This document shows, piece by piece, positions 5,701 to 64,000 of a stretch of 64,000 bases of DNA. The DNA is from an uncultured Ruminiclostridium sp. Lineage in GTDB: Bacteria > Bacillota > Clostridia > Oscillospirales > Ruminococcaceae. The stretch covers positions 62,001 through 126,000 of the forward strand of contig CANQXF010000002.1 in the NCBI GenBank assembly GCA_947627695.1, written 5' to 3'. Under the pieces are notes generated by a model. The model had not been told where the DNA came from, did no database searches, and worked only from the letters and a program-made list of their open reading frames with translations. The position numbers and the translations under genes were made by a program. How positions within the stretch are numbered: position 1 is the first letter of the stretch; the number at the start of each line of letters is the position of its first letter.

Positions 5701-6014
5701 TGAGCGAAATATCAACTATTTATACGCTTTGCGAAAGTATAGTAAAATTGCGGACAAACCTCGGAATAACTCAGTCCCAGCTTGGCAAAAGGCTTGGCGT
5801 TACTCGTGCCGCCGTCAACTCTTGGGAAATGGGCTTATCTATTCCTCAACTAAAGCACATTGTCGAGATGTCCAAAATCTTCAACACCACCGTTGACGGC
5901 TTGCTCAACACCTCTCAGCGAGTGGTGATAGACATCACCGACCTTTCCGAAAAGGAGCAGCAGGCGGTATTCGGCATAGTGGACTGCCTGAAGAACAAAG
6001 CCGAACAACAGTAA
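5701..6014 (+). CDS. XRE-family HTH regulator
   Basis: This 104-residue protein has a Cro/CI helix-turn-helix at about residues 13-65 (LGITQSQLGKRLGVTRAAVNSWE). A short C-terminal helix, SEKEQQAVFGIVDCLKNK, is typical of small Firmicutes repressors. The ATG at 5701 is chosen over one at 5643 because AAGGTG lies just before it and the upstream extension is AT-rich and unconserved in character. It is divergent from the LRR surface-protein gene, with three operator half-sites in the shared intergenic DNA. It may therefore control the LRR gene and itself (inference). Confidence 0.88.
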
Positions 6015-6048
6015 AACAGCCGGGCATTTTAAATGACGGCTGTTTTTT
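6013..6048 (+). terminator. Intrinsic terminator after the XRE gene
   Basis: AAAACAGCCG (6013-6022) pairs with CGGCTGTTTT (6037-6046) around a 14-base loop and runs into a T-tract. The left arm overlaps the XRE stop codon. Confidence 0.8.
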
Positions 6049-6051
6049 ATA

Positions 6052-6080
6052 TTGATTTTTTTCCAAAATAGTATTATACT
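6052..6080 (+). promoter_or_regulatory. Promoter of the moxR operon
   Basis: TTGATT (6052-6057) and TATACT (6075-6080) are separated by 17 bases and lie 28 bases before the moxR ATG. Confidence 0.65.
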
Positions 6081-6108
6081 GAAATAAGAAACAAAAGGAG
6101 GCGTTCCT

Positions 6109-7056
6109 ATGGACCCGTCAAAAGCTCACAACGTCACCGCCCAGGTGAACAAGGTCATTCTCGGCAAGGAAAAAGAGGTGGAGGAGGTAATGCTCACCTT
6201 TCTTGCCGACGGACATATTTTGCTTGAGGACATTCCGGGCGTGGGAAAAACAACCCTTGCCCTTGCCTTTTCAAAGGCTATGGCCTTGGACTGCCGCCGT
6301 GTGCAGTTCACTCCCGACGTAATGCCCTCGGACCTGACGGGATTTTCCGTCTACCGCCGAGACGAGGAACGCTTTGTTTATCAGCAGGGAAGCGTGTTCT
6401 GCAATCTGCTCCTTGCCGACGAGATAAACAGGACTTCACCAAAGACACAGTCCGCCCTGCTTGAGGTCATGGAGGAACGGCGTGTTTCGGTGGAGGGAGT
6501 GACCCGTGACGTCCCAAAGCCTTTTCTTGTAATAGCCACCCAGAACCCGTTCGGCACGGCGGGAACACAGCTCCTGCCTCCCGCGCAGGTGGACCGCTTT
6601 ATGTCCACGCTGACCTTAGGCTATCCCGACAGGGAACACGAGCTTGAAATGGCTATGACCGTGGGAGAGGAACAGCGTGCCGACAGCGTCGTTCCCGTTA
6701 TGACAAGGGAAGAATTATTGCAGGCACAGCACGATATACACACCGTTTTCATAAAAGAAGAGGTGGGGAACTACATACTTGATTTAGTTACCGCCACCAG
6801 AGCCCACCGCTATATTGAACGGGGCGCAAGCCCCAGAGCGACAATCGCCCTTGTAAAGCTGTCAAAAAGCGCCGCATGGTACAAGGGACGCGATTACGTC
6901 ACTCCCGCCGATGTTGCGGAGCAGTTCGTCTACGCCGTTTCCCACAGGATAACGCTTAATTCCTCCGCCAGAATGGACGGAATGACAAAGTCGGCGGTGC
7001 TGAACGAAATACTTTCTTCTGTTAAAAAGCCGCCTATGGGAGAAAAGGGCAGATGA
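6109..7056 (+). CDS. moxR: MoxR-family AAA+ ATPase
   Basis: The 315-residue protein is a complete MoxR ATPase. It has a Walker A motif GVGKTT near residue 44, Walker B LLLADEINR near 103, the sensor region VIATQNPFGTAGTQLLPPAQVDRF, and the C-terminal lid domain. MoxR proteins act as ATP-driven chaperones or inserters, usually with a neighbouring DUF58 protein. AAAGGAGG precedes the ATG. Its stop overlaps the DUF58 start by four bases, which indicates translational coupling in a three-gene operon ending with a transglutaminase. The family role in envelope or enzyme maturation is known; the client here is not. Confidence 0.95.
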   Translation: MDPSKAHNVTAQVNKVILGKEKEVEEVMLTFLADGHILLEDIPGVGKTTLALAFSKAMALDCRRVQFTPDVMPSDLTGFSVYRRDEERFVYQQGSVFCNLLLADEINRTSPKTQSALLEVMEERRVSVEGVTRDVPKPFLVIATQNPFGTAGTQLLPPAQVDRFMSTLTLGYPDREHELEMAMTVGEEQRADSVVPVMTREELLQAQHDIHTVFIKEEVGNYILDLVTATRAHRYIERGASPRATIALVKLSKSAAWYKGRDYVTPADVAEQFVYAVSHRITLNSSARMDGMTKSAVLNEILSSVKKPPMGEKGR

Positions 7057-8090
7057 GCAGGATAGTTTTCGGACTGCTTGCCGTTCTCACCTATTATCTT
7101 GCGGGAATGTACCTTTCGTTGCCGCTGATGATACTCGGCTTTGCGGAGCTTTTCCTGCTGATATTTCTCATATTCCTGCCCCGCTATCTGAAAAAACATA
7201 TTTCCGTTGAATTTATCAAGAAAAGCGAAACTGCGGAGCTTGGCGGCGAAATGCACTGTCACCTTGTGATACATAACACAGGAAAGCTCCCCGTCAGCAG
7301 AGCAAGACTTCGCTTAAAGCTGAAATATGCGGGGGAGCAAAAGGAAGTCACCCGCCGCCTTTATCTTGGGGCGGAAAAGGGCGACAGTGAAACGGAATTT
7401 TCTTTCCGAACCGAATATTGCGGCTTGATACAGATAAAGGCGGATAAACTGCGGGTATATGATTATATGTCCCTTTACTCCTCCTCAAAGCCGCTGGACG
7501 CATACATGGAGGCGGCGGTTTTCCCCGTAAGCAGTCCGCTTGCCATAGACCTGCCCGCCGAGGCGTTTGACAACACAGGAGTTTCAGAGCTTACAGCGGA
7601 CAAAACGGGAGAAAACAACGACGAGATACGCCAGATACGGGAGTACCGCATGGGCGACTCCAACCGCCACGTCCACTGGAACCTGAGCGCCAAGACCGAC
7701 AAGCTGTGGATAAAGGAATATCAGAAGGACACCGACCTTACGGCGGGGATATTACTTTCCTGCGGCGGTGAGACCACAACTCAGCAGCAAAGCGCATTTT
7801 ACAGCCTTTTCTTTTCCCTTGCGCTGGGACTTTTGCAAAGCGCTGCTTTGGTGAAGGTCTGCTGGTACGACGGCGGGAAAGGCGGCTATATCTTCGACGA
7901 AGCGGCAAACCCTGAGCAGTTGCAGGAATTGCTGGTAAGGCTTTACAGAAGTAATTTATCCAAGGCGGACAACGCTCCCGCCTTTGAATATCTTTTCAGA
8001 CTGACAACCGACCTTGAGCTTTACGACAAGGAAAAGCAGATACGCCGCTTTACAGCGGAGGAGATACTGGCAGGAAATATCACCCTTTGA
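7053..8090 (+). CDS. DUF58 membrane-anchored protein
   Basis: The 345-residue protein has two N-terminal membrane helices (about 5-45). An immunoglobulin-like segment follows, then the DUF58 signature region MGDSNRHVHWNLSAKTDKLW at about 198-217. DUF58 proteins have a von Willebrand A-like fold and work with MoxR ATPases; a transglutaminase normally follows, as here. The ATG overlaps the moxR stop (ATGA). Its own stop lies 15 bases before the next gene, with AAAGGAGGAG in the gap. A role in maturation or control of the transglutaminase-like protein is inferred from this conserved trio. Confidence 0.93.
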   Translation: MSRIVFGLLAVLTYYLAGMYLSLPLMILGFAELFLLIFLIFLPRYLKKHISVEFIKKSETAELGGEMHCHLVIHNTGKLPVSRARLRLKLKYAGEQKEVTRRLYLGAEKGDSETEFSFRTEYCGLIQIKADKLRVYDYMSLYSSSKPLDAYMEAAVFPVSSPLAIDLPAEAFDNTGVSELTADKTGENNDEIRQIREYRMGDSNRHVHWNLSAKTDKLWIKEYQKDTDLTAGILLSCGGETTTQQQSAFYSLFFSLALGLLQSAALVKVCWYDGGKGGYIFDEAANPEQLQELLVRLYRSNLSKADNAPAFEYLFRLTTDLELYDKEKQIRRFTAEEILAGNITL

Positions 8091-56897: not shown

Positions 56898-56972
<75 letters not shown>

Positions 56973-57074: not shown

Positions 57075-58253
57075 TTAGGCTTTTTTCAGAATTGTTTCGG
57101 TTAAAATCGAAACGCTTTTTTTATCAGCGTTTGCAAGAACGTGAGCATAAATGTTTGTAGTGGTCGAAGGTGAGGAGTGACCGAGCCTCCCCGCAACCGA
57201 AACGACGTCAACGCCTTCGTGAATCAGCAACGAAGTCATAGTGTGGCGGAAAATGTGAGGGTTTAAGTGTGGAAGTCCATAACGTTCAGAAAACCGACGT
57301 AACCAAACGTTTATGCTGTCTGGGTGCATAGGAGCGCCGTTGTCCTGCTGAAACACAAAGTCTGACCTAATACCTTTTTCAAAATTTATCCTCATTTGCT
57401 CGATTTTGTAACGGTGTAAAAGGTTCATTACGTTTTCAGGCAGTGAAATATGACGGGTGCTTTTTTGAGTTTTGGGTGAAGTTTCGTAAACGCCTCTATC
57501 AGCAGAATAAAGCACGTTGTTACAAATAAAAATTTCACAGTTTTGAAAATCGATATTTTCCCATTTCAGACCTAAAATTTCCCCTCGCCGAGCGCCTGAA
57601 AAAACAAACAAATTGATTAAGGCTTGCCATTTAGGAGGCTCGCTTTCAAGCGCTTTGAGAACGGCTTGAATCTCGTCAATTTGAAGACACTTAACTTCTT
57701 TTCGCTCGACTTTTGGCGGGAGCGCTCTTTCAGCTGGGTTAAACGGAATAATTTGCTCTCGAACGGCGTTTTCAAGAATCACGGAAATGAGGCGGTGATA
57801 TTCCAAAACCGTTTTTGGCGATAGCTTTCCGCCCGTTTTTTCGTTCAGATTTTCGGTTTGCAAATATTCATAAAAACGGTTCAAATGCCGTGCGCTAATT
57901 TCATTGAGACGCAAATAACCTAATTTTTCGTTTATCCGTTTTAGTAGAGAATCATATCTAATCTTCGTCGAATGTTTCAAACCCCGCTGTTCTTTTAAGC
58001 TTATGACGTATTCCGAATAAGCCCCAAAACGCTGACGGCTATCGGAAATTCGACCTTCACGAACCAAAGTTTCAAATCGTGCAGCCGCCTTTTCTGCCTC
58101 TTTCCGTGCGTGCTTTTCTGACCATTCCGCCTTTTTCTTGAGTGACATTGTGTGAACTATCTGTTTTCCGCAACCGTCTCGCCCCGTTGAAATTCTAATC
58201 AAAAACGAGGTTATTTGACCGTTTTTGTTTCGCCTTACAGTAATGTTCGCCAT
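57075..58253 (-). CDS. int: Tyrosine integrase of the tRNA-fMet element
   Basis: The 392-residue protein is a complete phage-type tyrosine recombinase. It has an N-terminal arm-binding domain (about 1-70), a SAM-like core-binding domain (about 75-175) and a catalytic domain. The catalytic residues are Arg in SGARRGEIL, Lys in SPKTQKSTR, His and Arg in HIFRHTMTS, His in LGHSSPSTTT, and Tyr in NIYAHV. It integrates and excises the element at tRNA-fMet. The ATG overlaps the repressor stop by one base (TAATG), so the two are co-expressed. It ends toward attL. Confidence 0.95.
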   Translation of the reverse strand: MANITVRRNKNGQITSFLIRISTGRDGCGKQIVHTMSLKKKAEWSEKHARKEAEKAAARFETLVREGRISDSRQRFGAYSEYVISLKEQRGLKHSTKIRYDSLLKRINEKLGYLRLNEISARHLNRFYEYLQTENLNEKTGGKLSPKTVLEYHRLISVILENAVREQIIPFNPAERALPPKVERKEVKCLQIDEIQAVLKALESEPPKWQALINLFVFSGARRGEILGLKWENIDFQNCEIFICNNVLYSADRGVYETSPKTQKSTRHISLPENVMNLLHRYKIEQMRINFEKGIRSDFVFQQDNGAPMHPDSINVWLRRFSERYGLPHLNPHIFRHTMTSLLIHEGVDVVSVAGRLGHSSPSTTTNIYAHVLANADKKSVSILTETILKKA

Positions 58254-61706: not shown

Positions 61707-61750
<44 letters not shown>

Positions 61751-61751
<1 letters not shown>

Positions 61752-61912
61752 GCGGCTGAGCCGCTTCAACACGCTCCCAGAACGCGGGAGCGTGTTTTTA
61801 TATTTACCACCCAAAAAGCTTTTTGGTCACAACATCACAGCGGCTGAGCCGCTTCAGCACGCTCCCAGAACACGGGAGCGTGTTTTTATATCCACCGCCC
61901 AAACATCTTTCC
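61751..61912 (+). repeat. Tandem tRNA-terminator module, two copies
   Basis: Two copies start at 61751 and 61839, 88 bases apart. Each has GCGGCTGAGCCGC, then an ACGCTCCC/GGGAGCGTG hairpin, a T-run and TTTACCACCCAAA or a close variant. The second part matches the tRNA-Arg terminator at 10600-10656. It probably was the natural terminator of tRNA-fMet before integration. Confidence 0.75.
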
Positions 61913-62268: not shown

Positions 62269-62297
62269 AAAGAGGCTGATATAAGATCAACCTCTTT
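62269..62297 (-). terminator. Terminator facing the invertible promoter
   Basis: AAAGAGG-C-TGAT and ATCA-A-CCTCTTT pair around five bases. Read leftwards it is followed by GTTTTATTTG. It would stop transcripts leaving the invertible segment in the orientation read here. Confidence 0.7.
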
Positions 62298-62314: not shown

Positions 62315-62336
62315 TCGCTTATTGTTCCCATAAGCG
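62315..62336 (+). repeat. Left inverted repeat (recombination site)
   Basis: Arms CGCTTAT and ATAAGCG flank the asymmetric seven-base spacer TGTTCCC. This is the architecture of a tyrosine-recombinase core site. The same 22 bases occur in reverse at 63634-63655. Confidence 0.85.
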
Positions 62337-62364
62337 GTCCTAAAACTGTACATTCCTTTTTATA

Positions 62365-62393
62365 ATTTTATCACAAAACACTGTCATTGTCAA
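62365..62393 (-). promoter_or_regulatory. Invertible outward-facing promoter
   Basis: On the minus strand, a perfect TTGACA (62393-62388) and TAAAAT (62370-62365) are separated by 17 bases. Transcription would start near 62358 and cross the left repeat. No gene lies to its left in this orientation; a terminator does. Confidence 0.75.
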
Positions 62394-62494
62394 TATGATT
62401 TTTCTGACACAAAGCCTTTTTTTTATTAATAAAAAATTCAGCCATACAGTCCTCCGTCATTGTATAATTAAGAAAAAACGAGAGGTGACTTATT

Positions 62495-63568
62495 ATGTCA
62501 AGAAAAGGTACAAACATTTACAAACGCAGGGACGGACGCTGGGAAGCGAGATATGTTAAAAGCGTTGATTCAGGCGGAAAAAAGCATTATGGGTCGGTTT
62601 ACGGGAGGACTTACCGTGAAGTACGGGACAAGCAGGTAAGCTGCATAAACAATTCCGGCTCAGACTTCGGGCAGACGCATATAACCTTGTCGCAGCTTAT
62701 GAGAGAGTGGCTTTTTTCCGTTTCTCTCACCGTAAAAAATTCCACCTATCGCAAGTATGAATGCCTTGTACGCAACCATATCGAGCATACACATCTGGGA
62801 GATATGCAGGTCAGATCTATTACGGGGAAGGATATCAGCGCCCTGGCGTCCGAACTGCTTCTGACTCTCAGCGAAAAAAGCGTGAACGACGTTCTCACGA
62901 CTGTAAATTCGGCTTTGTCATATGGGGAGGAGATCTATGGGATACCGAAAATAAAGCTGCACTATGTAAAAGAGGTACAAAAGGAAATGCGTGTGCTTTC
63001 CGTAGCCGAGCAAAAGCGGCTGGAGGCTTATCTTACAACCGATACCGACACCTGCAAATTCGGCGTCCTGCTGGCTCTTTATACGGGATTAAGATTGGGG
63101 GAGCTTTGCGCCCTGCGCTGGGAAGATGTGGGCAGGAACGAGCTTGTCGTCAGCAAAACTCTCCACAGGGTAAAGAGCGACAAGGGAACAGTCCTGGAGG
63201 TGACCACTCCCAAAACCAAAAGCTCATACCGAGTTATTCCGCTTCCCGAATTTCTCCTCCCGCTTACGGAGCAGTTCAGAAGCAGCGGCGCCGTTTTGAA
63301 AAATCATAACGGCGATTCGGTCGAGCCAAGGCTTATGCAGTACAGGTTTGAAACGTACATCAGGGAATGCGGTCTGCCTAAAACAAATTTTCACGCTTTG
63401 CGCCACACCTTTGCCACAAGGTGCGTGGAGGCGGGCTTCGACATAAAATCTCTGTCGGAGATTTTGGGGCACAGCGATGTAAAGACCACGCTGAACAGAT
63501 ACGTCCATTCATCATTTGAGCAGAAGAAAAAGAATATGGACCTTTTACAGCCTGCAAGTGAGTTATAA
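62495..63568 (+). CDS. Tyrosine recombinase of the invertible switch
   Basis: The 357-residue enzyme has an AP2-like arm-binding N-terminus (NIYKRRDGRWEARYV), a SAM-like core-binding domain (about 65-155) and a catalytic domain. The active-site set is complete: Arg in TGLRLGELC, Lys in TPKTKSSYR, His-x-x-Arg in HALRHTFAT, His in LGHSDVKTT and Tyr in NRYVHSS. GAGAGGTGACTTATT precedes the ATG. It is unlike the element integrase at 57075 in sequence. Because it lies inside its own inverted repeats, it is most likely a DNA invertase instead of an integrase. An old integrated element that lost its other genes is the alternative. Confidence 0.92.
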   Translation: MSRKGTNIYKRRDGRWEARYVKSVDSGGKKHYGSVYGRTYREVRDKQVSCINNSGSDFGQTHITLSQLMREWLFSVSLTVKNSTYRKYECLVRNHIEHTHLGDMQVRSITGKDISALASELLLTLSEKSVNDVLTTVNSALSYGEEIYGIPKIKLHYVKEVQKEMRVLSVAEQKRLEAYLTTDTDTCKFGVLLALYTGLRLGELCALRWEDVGRNELVVSKTLHRVKSDKGTVLEVTTPKTKSSYRVIPLPEFLLPLTEQFRSSGAVLKNHNGDSVEPRLMQYRFETYIRECGLPKTNFHALRHTFATRCVEAGFDIKSLSEILGHSDVKTTLNRYVHSSFEQKKKNMDLLQPASEL

Positions 63569-63587
63569 CACGTCAATATTCTGGTCA

Positions 63588-63618
63588 GGGCAGTGCGGAA
63601 ACTCCGCACTGCCCTGCT
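63588..63618 (+). terminator. Terminator of the switch recombinase
   Basis: GGGCAGTGCGGA pairs perfectly with TCCGCACTGCCC around three bases and is followed by TGCTTTT. It insulates the downstream lipoprotein gene from recombinase read-through in this orientation. Confidence 0.92.
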
Positions 63619-63633
63619 TTTGCACAGATCTTG

Positions 63634-63655
63634 CGCTTATGGGAACAATAAGCGA
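63634..63655 (-). repeat. Right inverted repeat (recombination site)
   Basis: The 22 bases are the exact reverse complement of 62315-62336, so the TGTTCCC spacer points the other way. Recombination would invert and not delete the DNA between them. Confidence 0.85.
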
Positions 63656-63722
63656 CAACACAGAACGCATTCTTTACTTTATAGTATTTCCGAAAATAAA
63701 AAAATAATTAGGGAGAATGCAT

Positions 63723-64000
63723 ATGAAAGAGAAAATAAAAACAATTACCTTTTTGTTTATTGTCACAGCGTTTTTGCTGTGCGGCTGTAACGCCGAAAAA
63801 ACGGTTGAAGATGAACGGGAACAGGGAAATTCCTCTCCGGAAAGCTCTGCTTCGCAGGAAGAAACCACCACGACGACGCAAGAGATCTTAACAACGCCGA
63901 GCGTAAGCGACACCGTTGCTGATGATGAACAACTGCAAACCGACCTGACAAACTTTGTTTCAATATTTACAGAACATGATCTGGAAATAACCGATATGCA
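63723..64000 (+). CDS. Putative phase-variable lipoprotein (partial)
   Basis: The gene runs off the window; 92 residues are visible. It has a signal peptide and lipobox (LLCGC near residue 20), then a Ser/Glu/Thr-rich stalk (ETTTTTQ), and the beginning of a globular part (LTNFVSIFTEHDLEITDM). AGGGAGAATGCAT precedes the ATG. The 67 bases between the right repeat and the ATG hold no convincing promoter, so expression may depend on inversion of the segment to its left. The body of the protein cannot be assigned. Confidence 0.8.
   Translation, partial: MKEKIKTITFLFIVTAFLLCGCNAEKTVEDEREQGNSSPESSASQEETTTTTQEILTTPSVSDTVADDEQLQTDLTNFVSIFTEHDLEITDM

Follow-up and report, generated by a model that had tools for sequence, protein, structure and literature searches.

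The stretch of DNA analysed here, called the window, comprises 64,000 nucleotides (nt) of the genome of an uncultured Ruminiclostridium sp. (GCA_947627695.1, contig CANQXF010000002.1, positions 62,001 to 126,000). Close to its right end lies a segment of 1341 base pairs (bp), 62315-63655, bounded by two inverted copies of a 22-bp sequence and holding one gene only, which codes for a tyrosine recombinase of 357 amino acids (aa). A promoter-like sequence is found between the left copy and the start of the recombinase gene. Beyond the right copy, a lipoprotein gene is the first of four genes on the same strand, reaching position L003:13537, about 5.5 kb past the window edge. The features are collected in Table 1. 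We consider it very probable that this segment is a self-contained invertible promoter cassette, OFF as assembled, and run by its own recombinase.

Table 1. The cassette and its immediate surroundings, with positions in the window.
Feature	Position	Strand	Remarks
Terminator-like hairpin, left of the cassette	62269..62297	-	12 pairs, only 4 of them G-C; fold z -5.6
Left recombination site	62315..62336	+	TCGCTTATTGTTCCCATAAGCG; 7-bp arms CGCTTAT/ATAAGCG with the asymmetric core TGTTCCC between them
Predicted outward promoter TTGACA-N17-TAAAAT	62365..62393	-	11/12 consensus matches; TG ahead of the -10; reads through the left arm
Two GTCA motifs, candidate arm-type sites	62383..62392	+	the second (62389) overlaps the -35 of the outward promoter
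GTCA near recombinase start, candidate arm-type site	62456..62459	+	sequence motif
Tyrosine recombinase gene	62495..63568	+	357 aa; Pfam Phage_integrase E 3e-24, Phage_int_SAM_3 E 2e-7
Paired GTCA (63572, 63584), candidate arm-type sites	63572..63587	+	12 bp apart; after the recombinase stop
Strong hairpin 3' of the recombinase	about 63586..63616	+	-32.7 kcal/mol, z -6.1; short T-run
Right recombination site	63634..63655	-	exact reverse complement of the left arm, 22 bp
Shine-Dalgarno-like AGGGAGA of the lipoprotein gene	63710..63716	+	outside the invertible segment; read from the sequence
Lipoprotein gene, lipobox-like LCGC	63723..64000	+	343 aa from ATG 63723, 345 from 63717; cut by the window edge

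The two sites form the sole perfect inverted repeat of at least 16 bp with a spacing of 200-3000 bp in the window, and the 21-bp site has exactly two copies in the 2.7-Mb genome (67 contigs). Inverted sites with an identical asymmetric core, a defining feature of invertible promoters, are hence present. A third site acting in trans was considered and rejected: the only extra match, with 3 mismatches allowed, lies inside a coding gene as judged by eye and looks like chance. A chance repeat was rejected as well, given the uniqueness of the pair in the window and the conservation of the layout among relatives. The catalytic domain that characterises tyrosine recombinases is found in the enclosed protein: besides the Phage_integrase match, R200, K240, H300, R303, H326 and Y336 are invariant in two alignments (12 and 23 sequences), and we take these residues to hold the catalytic R-K-H-R-H-Y roles. 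The closest solved structures, 6en0 and 6emy ("Int protein", E ~2e-29), are presumably those of the Tn1549 Int.

An earlier note, made from the letters of this DNA alone, had described identical 22-bp inverted repeats with 7-bp arms around TGTTCCC, enclosing an intact tyrosine recombinase. The coordinates and the exact complementarity of the repeats were confirmed, and the recombinase is a complete open reading frame (ORF) with Pfam matches and invariant catalytic-type residues. The site that it suggested tracing through genomes occurs as the single pair in its own genome, the relatives carrying mostly other repeats. The same note placed an outward promoter pointing left into a terminator at 62269-62297. 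This also stood: four promoter-like sites were found in that stretch against 2.2 expected by shuffling, the minus-strand TTGACA-N17-TAAAAT scores best, and there is a hairpin at the place named, though with few G-C pairs. Judged by sequence only, the promoter lies inside the segment and is placed to read out through one site in one orientation. The lipoprotein gene had been said to lack a convincing promoter, and no plus-strand promoter-like site with at least 9 of 12 matches occurs between the right arm and its start. The claim of an insulating recombinase terminator held in part: the hairpin at 63586-63616 is strong and likely insulates the lipoprotein gene from the recombinase gene, and its T-run is poor, which leaves it unlisted by a simple terminator scan.

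The layout of the window cassette is repeated many times among relatives. These were sought in 99 relatives of the genome and 71 genomes of the genus (overlapping sets), in viral contigs (74 loci) and, with the window recombinase protein as query, in plasmid and phage collections; from the genome contigs, the best 80 of 583 confirmed stretches were taken. Family counts cover L003 and the loci from L034 on, with 213 recombinase ORFs, or 186 after removal of identical ones; the remaining L001-L033 are nearly all shorter copies of later loci or distant integrases, and L010 (41% identity, 20-bp repeat, without a later copy) accordingly falls outside the cassettes counted. At least 200 bits against the window protein are reached by 128 recombinases, 3 of them cut off and 14 with short flanks. 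Inverted repeats were scored with +1 for a match and -2 for a mismatch, and a score of at least 16 was required. Such repeats enclose 91 of the 111 recombinases with at least 200 bits and full flanks, or 100 of 125 if shorter flanks are included; the latter are the 100 cassettes referred to below. The controls differ sharply: 2/400 and 4/551 with swapped flanks, 6/111 for direct repeats in the same flanks, and 4/34 for inverted repeats around recombinases below 200 bits. On a tree, possession of a repeat changes 26 times, versus 47 with shuffled labels; it is thus clustered, yet often gained, lost or missed.

The predicted promoter is equally tied to one end of the cassette. The best outward TTGACA/TATAAT pair was scored at each end of the 100 cassettes. 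At the recombinase-start end the score is at least 11 in 75 and at least 10 in 87, while at the other end none reaches 11 and 4 reach 10. Inward-pointing pairs at the start end reach 11 in one cassette and 10 in 16, and letter-shuffled start-end sequences do so in 1.3% and 10.3%, respectively. The spacer is 17 in 73 of the 75. The stretch scored is shorter at the other end (median 97.5 versus 160 bases); the start end gains a little from this, but a difference of 75 versus 0 cannot arise in that way. Three cassettes (L035, L074, L081) are undercounted in the 75 owing to a wrong stretch start, the promoter being present in all three; L074 and L081 also bear the labels L036 and L069, respectively. 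A terminator at the recombinase end was rejected as a family trait, a hairpin with z<-2 following the recombinase in only 28 of 92 cassettes.

The sites themselves are mostly locus-specific, with 97 different repeat strings among the 100 cassettes. The idea of a private site for every switch is nevertheless wrong for part of the family, as 36 locus pairs share at least a 14-mer of the repeat, some of them within one genome. The same 20-bp repeat is found in L078, L088 and L057 (all G017) and again in L010 and L045 (G042), and at least 14 bp are common to L050 and L084 (G028) and to L035 and L074 (G048). A genome may hold many copies, up to seven in G042 and six in G017. Plasmids carry them too: the cassette of R. 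albus 7 plasmid pRUMAL02 has perfect 20-bp repeats, that of a Vescimonas fastidiosa plasmid perfect 29-bp repeats with an annotated dockerin as the second gene on the promoter side, which makes it ON-like, and that of an E. faecalis plasmid 25-bp repeats with one mismatch; the plasmid repeats of E. gilvus and E. raffinosus are weak (scores 12 and 15). Dyad arms are clear in 50 of 96 sites. In these 50, the two copies are always alike at -2 to +5 around the centre. Differences occur in 0-28% at -13 to -3 and +6 to +12, rise to 46% at +13, and amount to 56-86% at 14 bp and farther out. The cores are identical in 49 of the 50 and self-palindromic in none; identical asymmetric cores are what a core-exchanging tyrosine recombinase requires for inversion.

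Inversion is observed at the DNA level between two relatives, L050 and L084, which occupy two places in G028. A flank of 981 bp is common to both on the same strand (93.6%), while the cassettes, alignable over 1250 bp (85.7%), match on opposite strands, and the change of strand falls at the repeats. The flipped pair belongs to a subfamily with tandem recombinases: in L048-L057 (G017, G028, G029, G035) a second, different recombinase gene stands just beyond the cassette as its first neighbour. Altogether 70 pairs of recombinase genes were compared, 22 of which have alignable flanks (one by 28 bp only). The cassettes of L109-L111 agree in orientation, and for those of E. faecalis and R. albus the plasmid collection contains no second copy. 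Homologous targets also occur on either side of different cassettes. Signal-peptidase-like homologues occupy the promoter side of two cassettes, L112 (122 bp) and L039 (584 bp), and the opposite side of three others, L142, L133 and L156. In the genome of the window itself, L062 (7961-14956, contig C9) and L064 (7897-14775, contig C12) hold surface-type proteins of about 2300 aa with LPXTG-like tails, 48% identical over 2490 aligned columns and each adjoining a cassette of its own, that of L062 being ON-like and that of L064 OFF-like; the L062 repeat scores only 14, which places this locus outside the 100.

Orientation was called across the family from the nearest ORF within 350 bp that points away, the true target being judged by position only. 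By this measure, 59 of the 100 cassettes are purely OFF-like and 8 purely ON-like; such an ORF stands on both sides of 22 and on neither side of 11. Of the first ORFs, 85 of 96 point away on the recombinase 3' side, compared with 39 of 91 on the promoter side. Assemblies would thus mostly catch the state in which the promoter faces away, suggesting that the switch is biased to OFF in sequenced cells, either by mechanical bias or by selection. The OFF state that the earlier note had assigned to the window fits both the leftward promoter running into a hairpin and the preponderance of OFF-like relatives. Its central proposal, an invertible promoter run by the enclosed recombinase, draws support from the 100/125 repeats, the 75 versus 0 promoters and the L050/L084 pair.

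From these elements a mechanism can be proposed for the window cassette. The recombinase would pair the two inverted sites, exchange strands in the 7-bp core TGTTCCC, and turn the whole segment round, its own gene included. In the assembled orientation, the promoter would fire left into the first hairpin, and the second hairpin would part the recombinase gene from the surface genes. Inversion would bring the promoter to 63577-63605, with 117 nt from the end of its -10 to the lipoprotein ATG, close to the distance of about 100 bases that had been foreseen, and in this ON state the promoter would transcribe the four-gene run. The start of the recombinase gene, and any promoter of its own, would be inside the segment, so that the switch could work both ways. 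The activity of the promoter, the position of the core and the flipping of this particular copy are inferred from the arrangement described above.

A further trait may link the enzyme to the control of the promoter. The GTCA motifs on both sides of the recombinase gene probably serve as arm-type sites to which the N-terminal domain of the enzyme binds, and where GTCA overlaps the -35, occupancy by the enzyme may compete with transcription. Binding of arm-type sites by an N-terminal domain is a property of the Tn916/Tn1549-type integrase class. Of 91 stretches after the recombinase stop, 47 contain GTCA at least twice, where shuffles give 2.3, and 38 of 48 spacings measure 12 or 13 bp. Among the 100 cassettes, 37 have paired GTCA within 45 nt of the stop; so do 4 of the 25 relatives that lack a good repeat, and none of 35 distant integrases used as controls. 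The motif shows a strand preference, and further clusters of it lie near the start of the recombinase gene and at the outward-promoter -35. Six recombinases (L035, L074, L037, L070, L071, L081) do not have the N-terminal DGRWE-type stretch, which was perhaps lost four times independently, as judged by eye. Within 45 nt after the stop, GTCA occurs in 72 of 94 cassettes with this stretch versus 0 of 6 without it (Fisher p 0.0003); before the start and outside the -35, the figures are 76 of 94 versus 0 of 6 (p 0.0001). In L070, L071 and L081 no more than 12 nt separate the stop from the arm; for the cassettes with at least 25 nt there, the figures are 74 of 89 versus 0 of 3 (p 0.006). The split by N-terminal stretch was corrected by eye for L123, L127, L135 and L140, which the pattern missed, and is not blind. 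In the true upstream stretch of L037, GTCA occurs only in the -35, and all six cassettes keep the outward promoter. Since the motif is missing wherever the N-terminal stretch is missing, the simplest reading would be that the recombinase N-terminal domain binds the GTCA repeats. No Pfam arm-binding domain was found in the window recombinase at E<=1, and a weak AP2 match (0.03) was found in L244.

The genes behind the switch code for a potential surface assembly. The lipoprotein has no NCBIfam match and, in Pfam, only a sub-threshold one to Lysis_col (0.05). It is followed by a 278-aa zinc-ribbon protein with hydrophobic stretches (membrane protein), an 821-aa protein with a ricin-type lectin (2e-23) and a type I dockerin (1.9e-8), and a 433-aa protein with a cohesin (2.3e-5; 25.0 bits versus a cut-off of 24.1) and an LPXTG-like tail below cut-off (0.0088). 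No carbohydrase domain was found in the proteins of the run, and a T-tailed hairpin, seen by eye, closes it. From spacing and strand, the four genes may form one transcript. The lipoprotein named as target by the earlier note is indeed the first gene after the right arm, but the controlled unit is probably larger. The lipoprotein is rare, being found in 3 of 71 genus genomes, its own included, so that orthologous loci cannot be compared. Four relatives with recombinases 60-75% identical also face surface-type proteins: a leucine-rich-repeat protein with a dockerin end lies beside the cassette in L035 and L037, a leucine-rich-repeat ORF followed by an ORF with a dockerin in L034, and in L036 (second copy in G048) the neighbour ends in a dockerin-like sequence, by eye. 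The second L035 gene combines lectin and dockerin, like the third gene of the window run.

A scan of targets in the family covered 89 cassettes with a near ORF pointing away, and 79 ORFs of 110-1600 aa were analysed with Pfam. They include 10 integrases, 6 LytTR proteins, 6 response regulators, 5 BspA-type leucine-rich-repeat proteins, 4 signal peptidases, 4 helix-turn-helix (HTH) proteins, 3 dockerins, 2 List_Bact_rpt proteins and 2 sigma factors, among others. Two individual loci extend this range, with cassettes before phage-defence-like genes: a type II/IIG restriction-modification-like operon in L091 (2561-7887) and a Leo-like one in L157 (7567-11883).

Three other explanations were weighed. 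The cassette could be a mobile element reduced to an integrase gene and the ends belonging to it, which inserts before genes, inversion being incidental and the promoter activating neighbours as in some insertion sequences. The integrase-like recombinase, with 6en0/6emy as nearest solved relatives, would fit this, as would the repeats shared by several cassettes within G017, G028, G048 and G042, the cassettes on plasmids of R. albus 7 and Vescimonas, and the occurrence of one cassette, unchanged and with the same 1.2-kb flanks, in three genomes under different names (L109, L110, L111). The common stretch of these three, however, runs past the cassette, and copies that share a repeat often share neighbouring DNA (T-side flanks of L057, L078 and L088 are ~89% identical over 956-996 bp), so that larger duplications explain the shared repeats. 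Moreover, the repeat strings are nearly all different, the window site exists as only one pair in its genome, and an asymmetric core in inverted sites is the geometry of inversion. Integrative mobile elements are recognised by direct-repeat ends or an attachment site and by transfer genes; here the ends are inverted and enclose one gene. We regard this explanation as unlikely. As to L109, L110 and L111, they are Butyricicoccus, Blautia and Agathobaculum records; in L111 an erm(B)-like gene lies past the 3' arm, and its exact site was not found in viral contigs.

The recombinase and the lipoprotein run could instead be one unit that is read through at present, inversion turning the run off. That the first ORF past the recombinase 3' end so often points away, its start frequently less than 100 bp from the arm, would suit such a unit. 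However, 75 of 100 cassettes have a near-consensus promoter facing in the opposite direction, inward ones reaching its score in 1 of 100, and a strong hairpin separates the genes both here and in the close relatives L034, L035, L074 and L037, all of which makes read-through very unlikely. Finally, the cassette might be a degenerate or locked relic whose repeats persist although inversion no longer occurs here. The uniform OFF-like state of the closest relatives and the likeness of the E. raffinosus strain pairs would agree with this, as would the in-frame stop in the recombinase frame of L090. Drift would be expected to erode a relic, and the window cassette has an intact recombinase, arms perfect over 22 bp including the core, and a promoter with 11 of 12 matches; we judge it most improbable that it is one. 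The L090 locus itself (5753-7168, R. bromii YE282, 54% identity) has 27-bp repeats with one mismatch and a GTCA pair, and the stop comes early; it is perhaps a locked switch.

The interpretation as an invertible cassette also has to face several observations that weigh against it. A quarter of the relatives (25/125) have no repeat scoring at least 16, repeat possession changes 26 times on the tree, 46 of 96 sites are without clear dyad arms by the measure used, and the pattern of repeat mismatches is partly built in because repeats were detected by matching. Several counts take related sequences as independent. The hairpins are imperfect, the left one being A+T-rich and the right one poor in T, and across the family strong ones are the minority noted above. 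As for orientation, 18 of the 22 pairs agree, and one locus, L050, takes part in every one of the 4 opposite pairs. No difference in orientation is seen within three Enterococcus raffinosus strain pairs. Nearest to the window are L003, L034, L035, L036/L074 and L037, and these five loci are OFF-like without exception. The window site, searched for in viral contigs to trace a flipped form, is absent from them.

The neighbourhood of the window cassette holds another element. Between 56898 and 61751 lies an integrative element, with a tRNA-Met gene at 56898-56972, an exact 40-bp copy of the 3' end of the latter at 61712, and an integrase gene (57075-58253, minus strand) and further small ORFs between the two. 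It is followed at 61751-61892 by a direct repeat of about 50 bp, cagcggctgagccgcttca...cgggagcgtgttttt, terminator-like and in two copies as seen by eye.

A wider proposal is put forward tentatively, as a serious possibility rather than a probable one: these cassettes may constitute a widely distributed class of portable bistable switches that has yet to be named, each with an integrase-type recombinase, its own inverted sites, a near-consensus outward promoter at the start end and arm-type GTCA repeats overlapping this promoter, so that occupancy by the recombinase and transcription of the target would be mutually exclusive. Several copies in a genome, mostly with different sites and in some cases with a common one, would set many surface states including phase-variable cohesin-dockerin assemblies. 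In open-access titles and abstract openings, with subscription papers and preprints mostly outside this coverage, which makes the negative weak, no description was found of invertible promoter cassettes with the recombinase inside in Clostridia; nor did these titles and abstract openings yield one of phase-variable dockerin or cohesin genes. A recognisable cassette would make the switched gene, its enzyme and its state predictable from an assembly. Given its neighbours (dockerin/cohesin surface proteins, giant sortase-anchored-like proteins, LytTR regulators, signal-peptidase-like genes and a restriction-modification-like operon), the switch may play a part in attachment, adhesion, signalling and phage defence. 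With an own site for most recombinases, the family may also supply independent recombinases for laboratory circuits.

Several known systems share parts of this design. In fimS of E. coli, with FimB and FimE, a promoter is likewise inverted between short inverted repeats by tyrosine recombinases; fimS is about 0.3 kb long, the recombinase genes lie outside it, and the two enzymes differ in direction bias. The Tn916/Tn1549-type integrases belong to the same recombinase superfamily, but the present segment is of 1.3 kb with the recombinase gene only, its sites are inverted and not direct, and the arrangement is kept in 100 of 125 relatives. Dockerin and cohesin proteins are components of the cellulosome and amylosome of Ruminococcus, which the run resembles in having a dockerin protein and a cohesin protein with a sortase-like tail; a RicinB lectin and, in relatives, leucine-rich repeats stand in place of carbohydrases. 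Jiang et al. reportedly described in 2019 the invertible promoters (invertons) of gut bacteria with tyrosine recombinases. The cassettes are like gut invertons in the promoter between inverted repeats, the tyrosine recombinases and the surface-gene targets. According to a survey, PMC11892184, Clostridia-like gut genomes have few invertons (median 3) and invertases near invertons generally cannot regulate them; here, by contrast, the recombinase lies within the flipping segment.

The closest likeness is with the Salmonella Hin segment, in which a recombinase gene and an outward promoter lie inside an inverted segment and the promoter drives the adjoining operon one way only. That segment consists of hin, the sites hixL and hixR, and the fljBA promoter; Hin itself belongs to the serine recombinases and acts with an enhancer and Fis. 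The window cassette has the gene and the promoter inside the segment and, in place of a serine recombinase, an integrase-type tyrosine recombinase, with mostly locus-specific sites and candidate arm-type sites; the targets of the family are largely cell-surface proteins or regulators in Clostridia. The window cassette would thus work like Hin but is no member of that system, because its enzyme belongs to another recombinase family. The history of the Salmonella Hin system is treated in PMC11868660. The layout is accordingly one known from Hin, and what appears to be new is its tyrosine-recombinase version, which would form a large family in gut Clostridia and their relatives.

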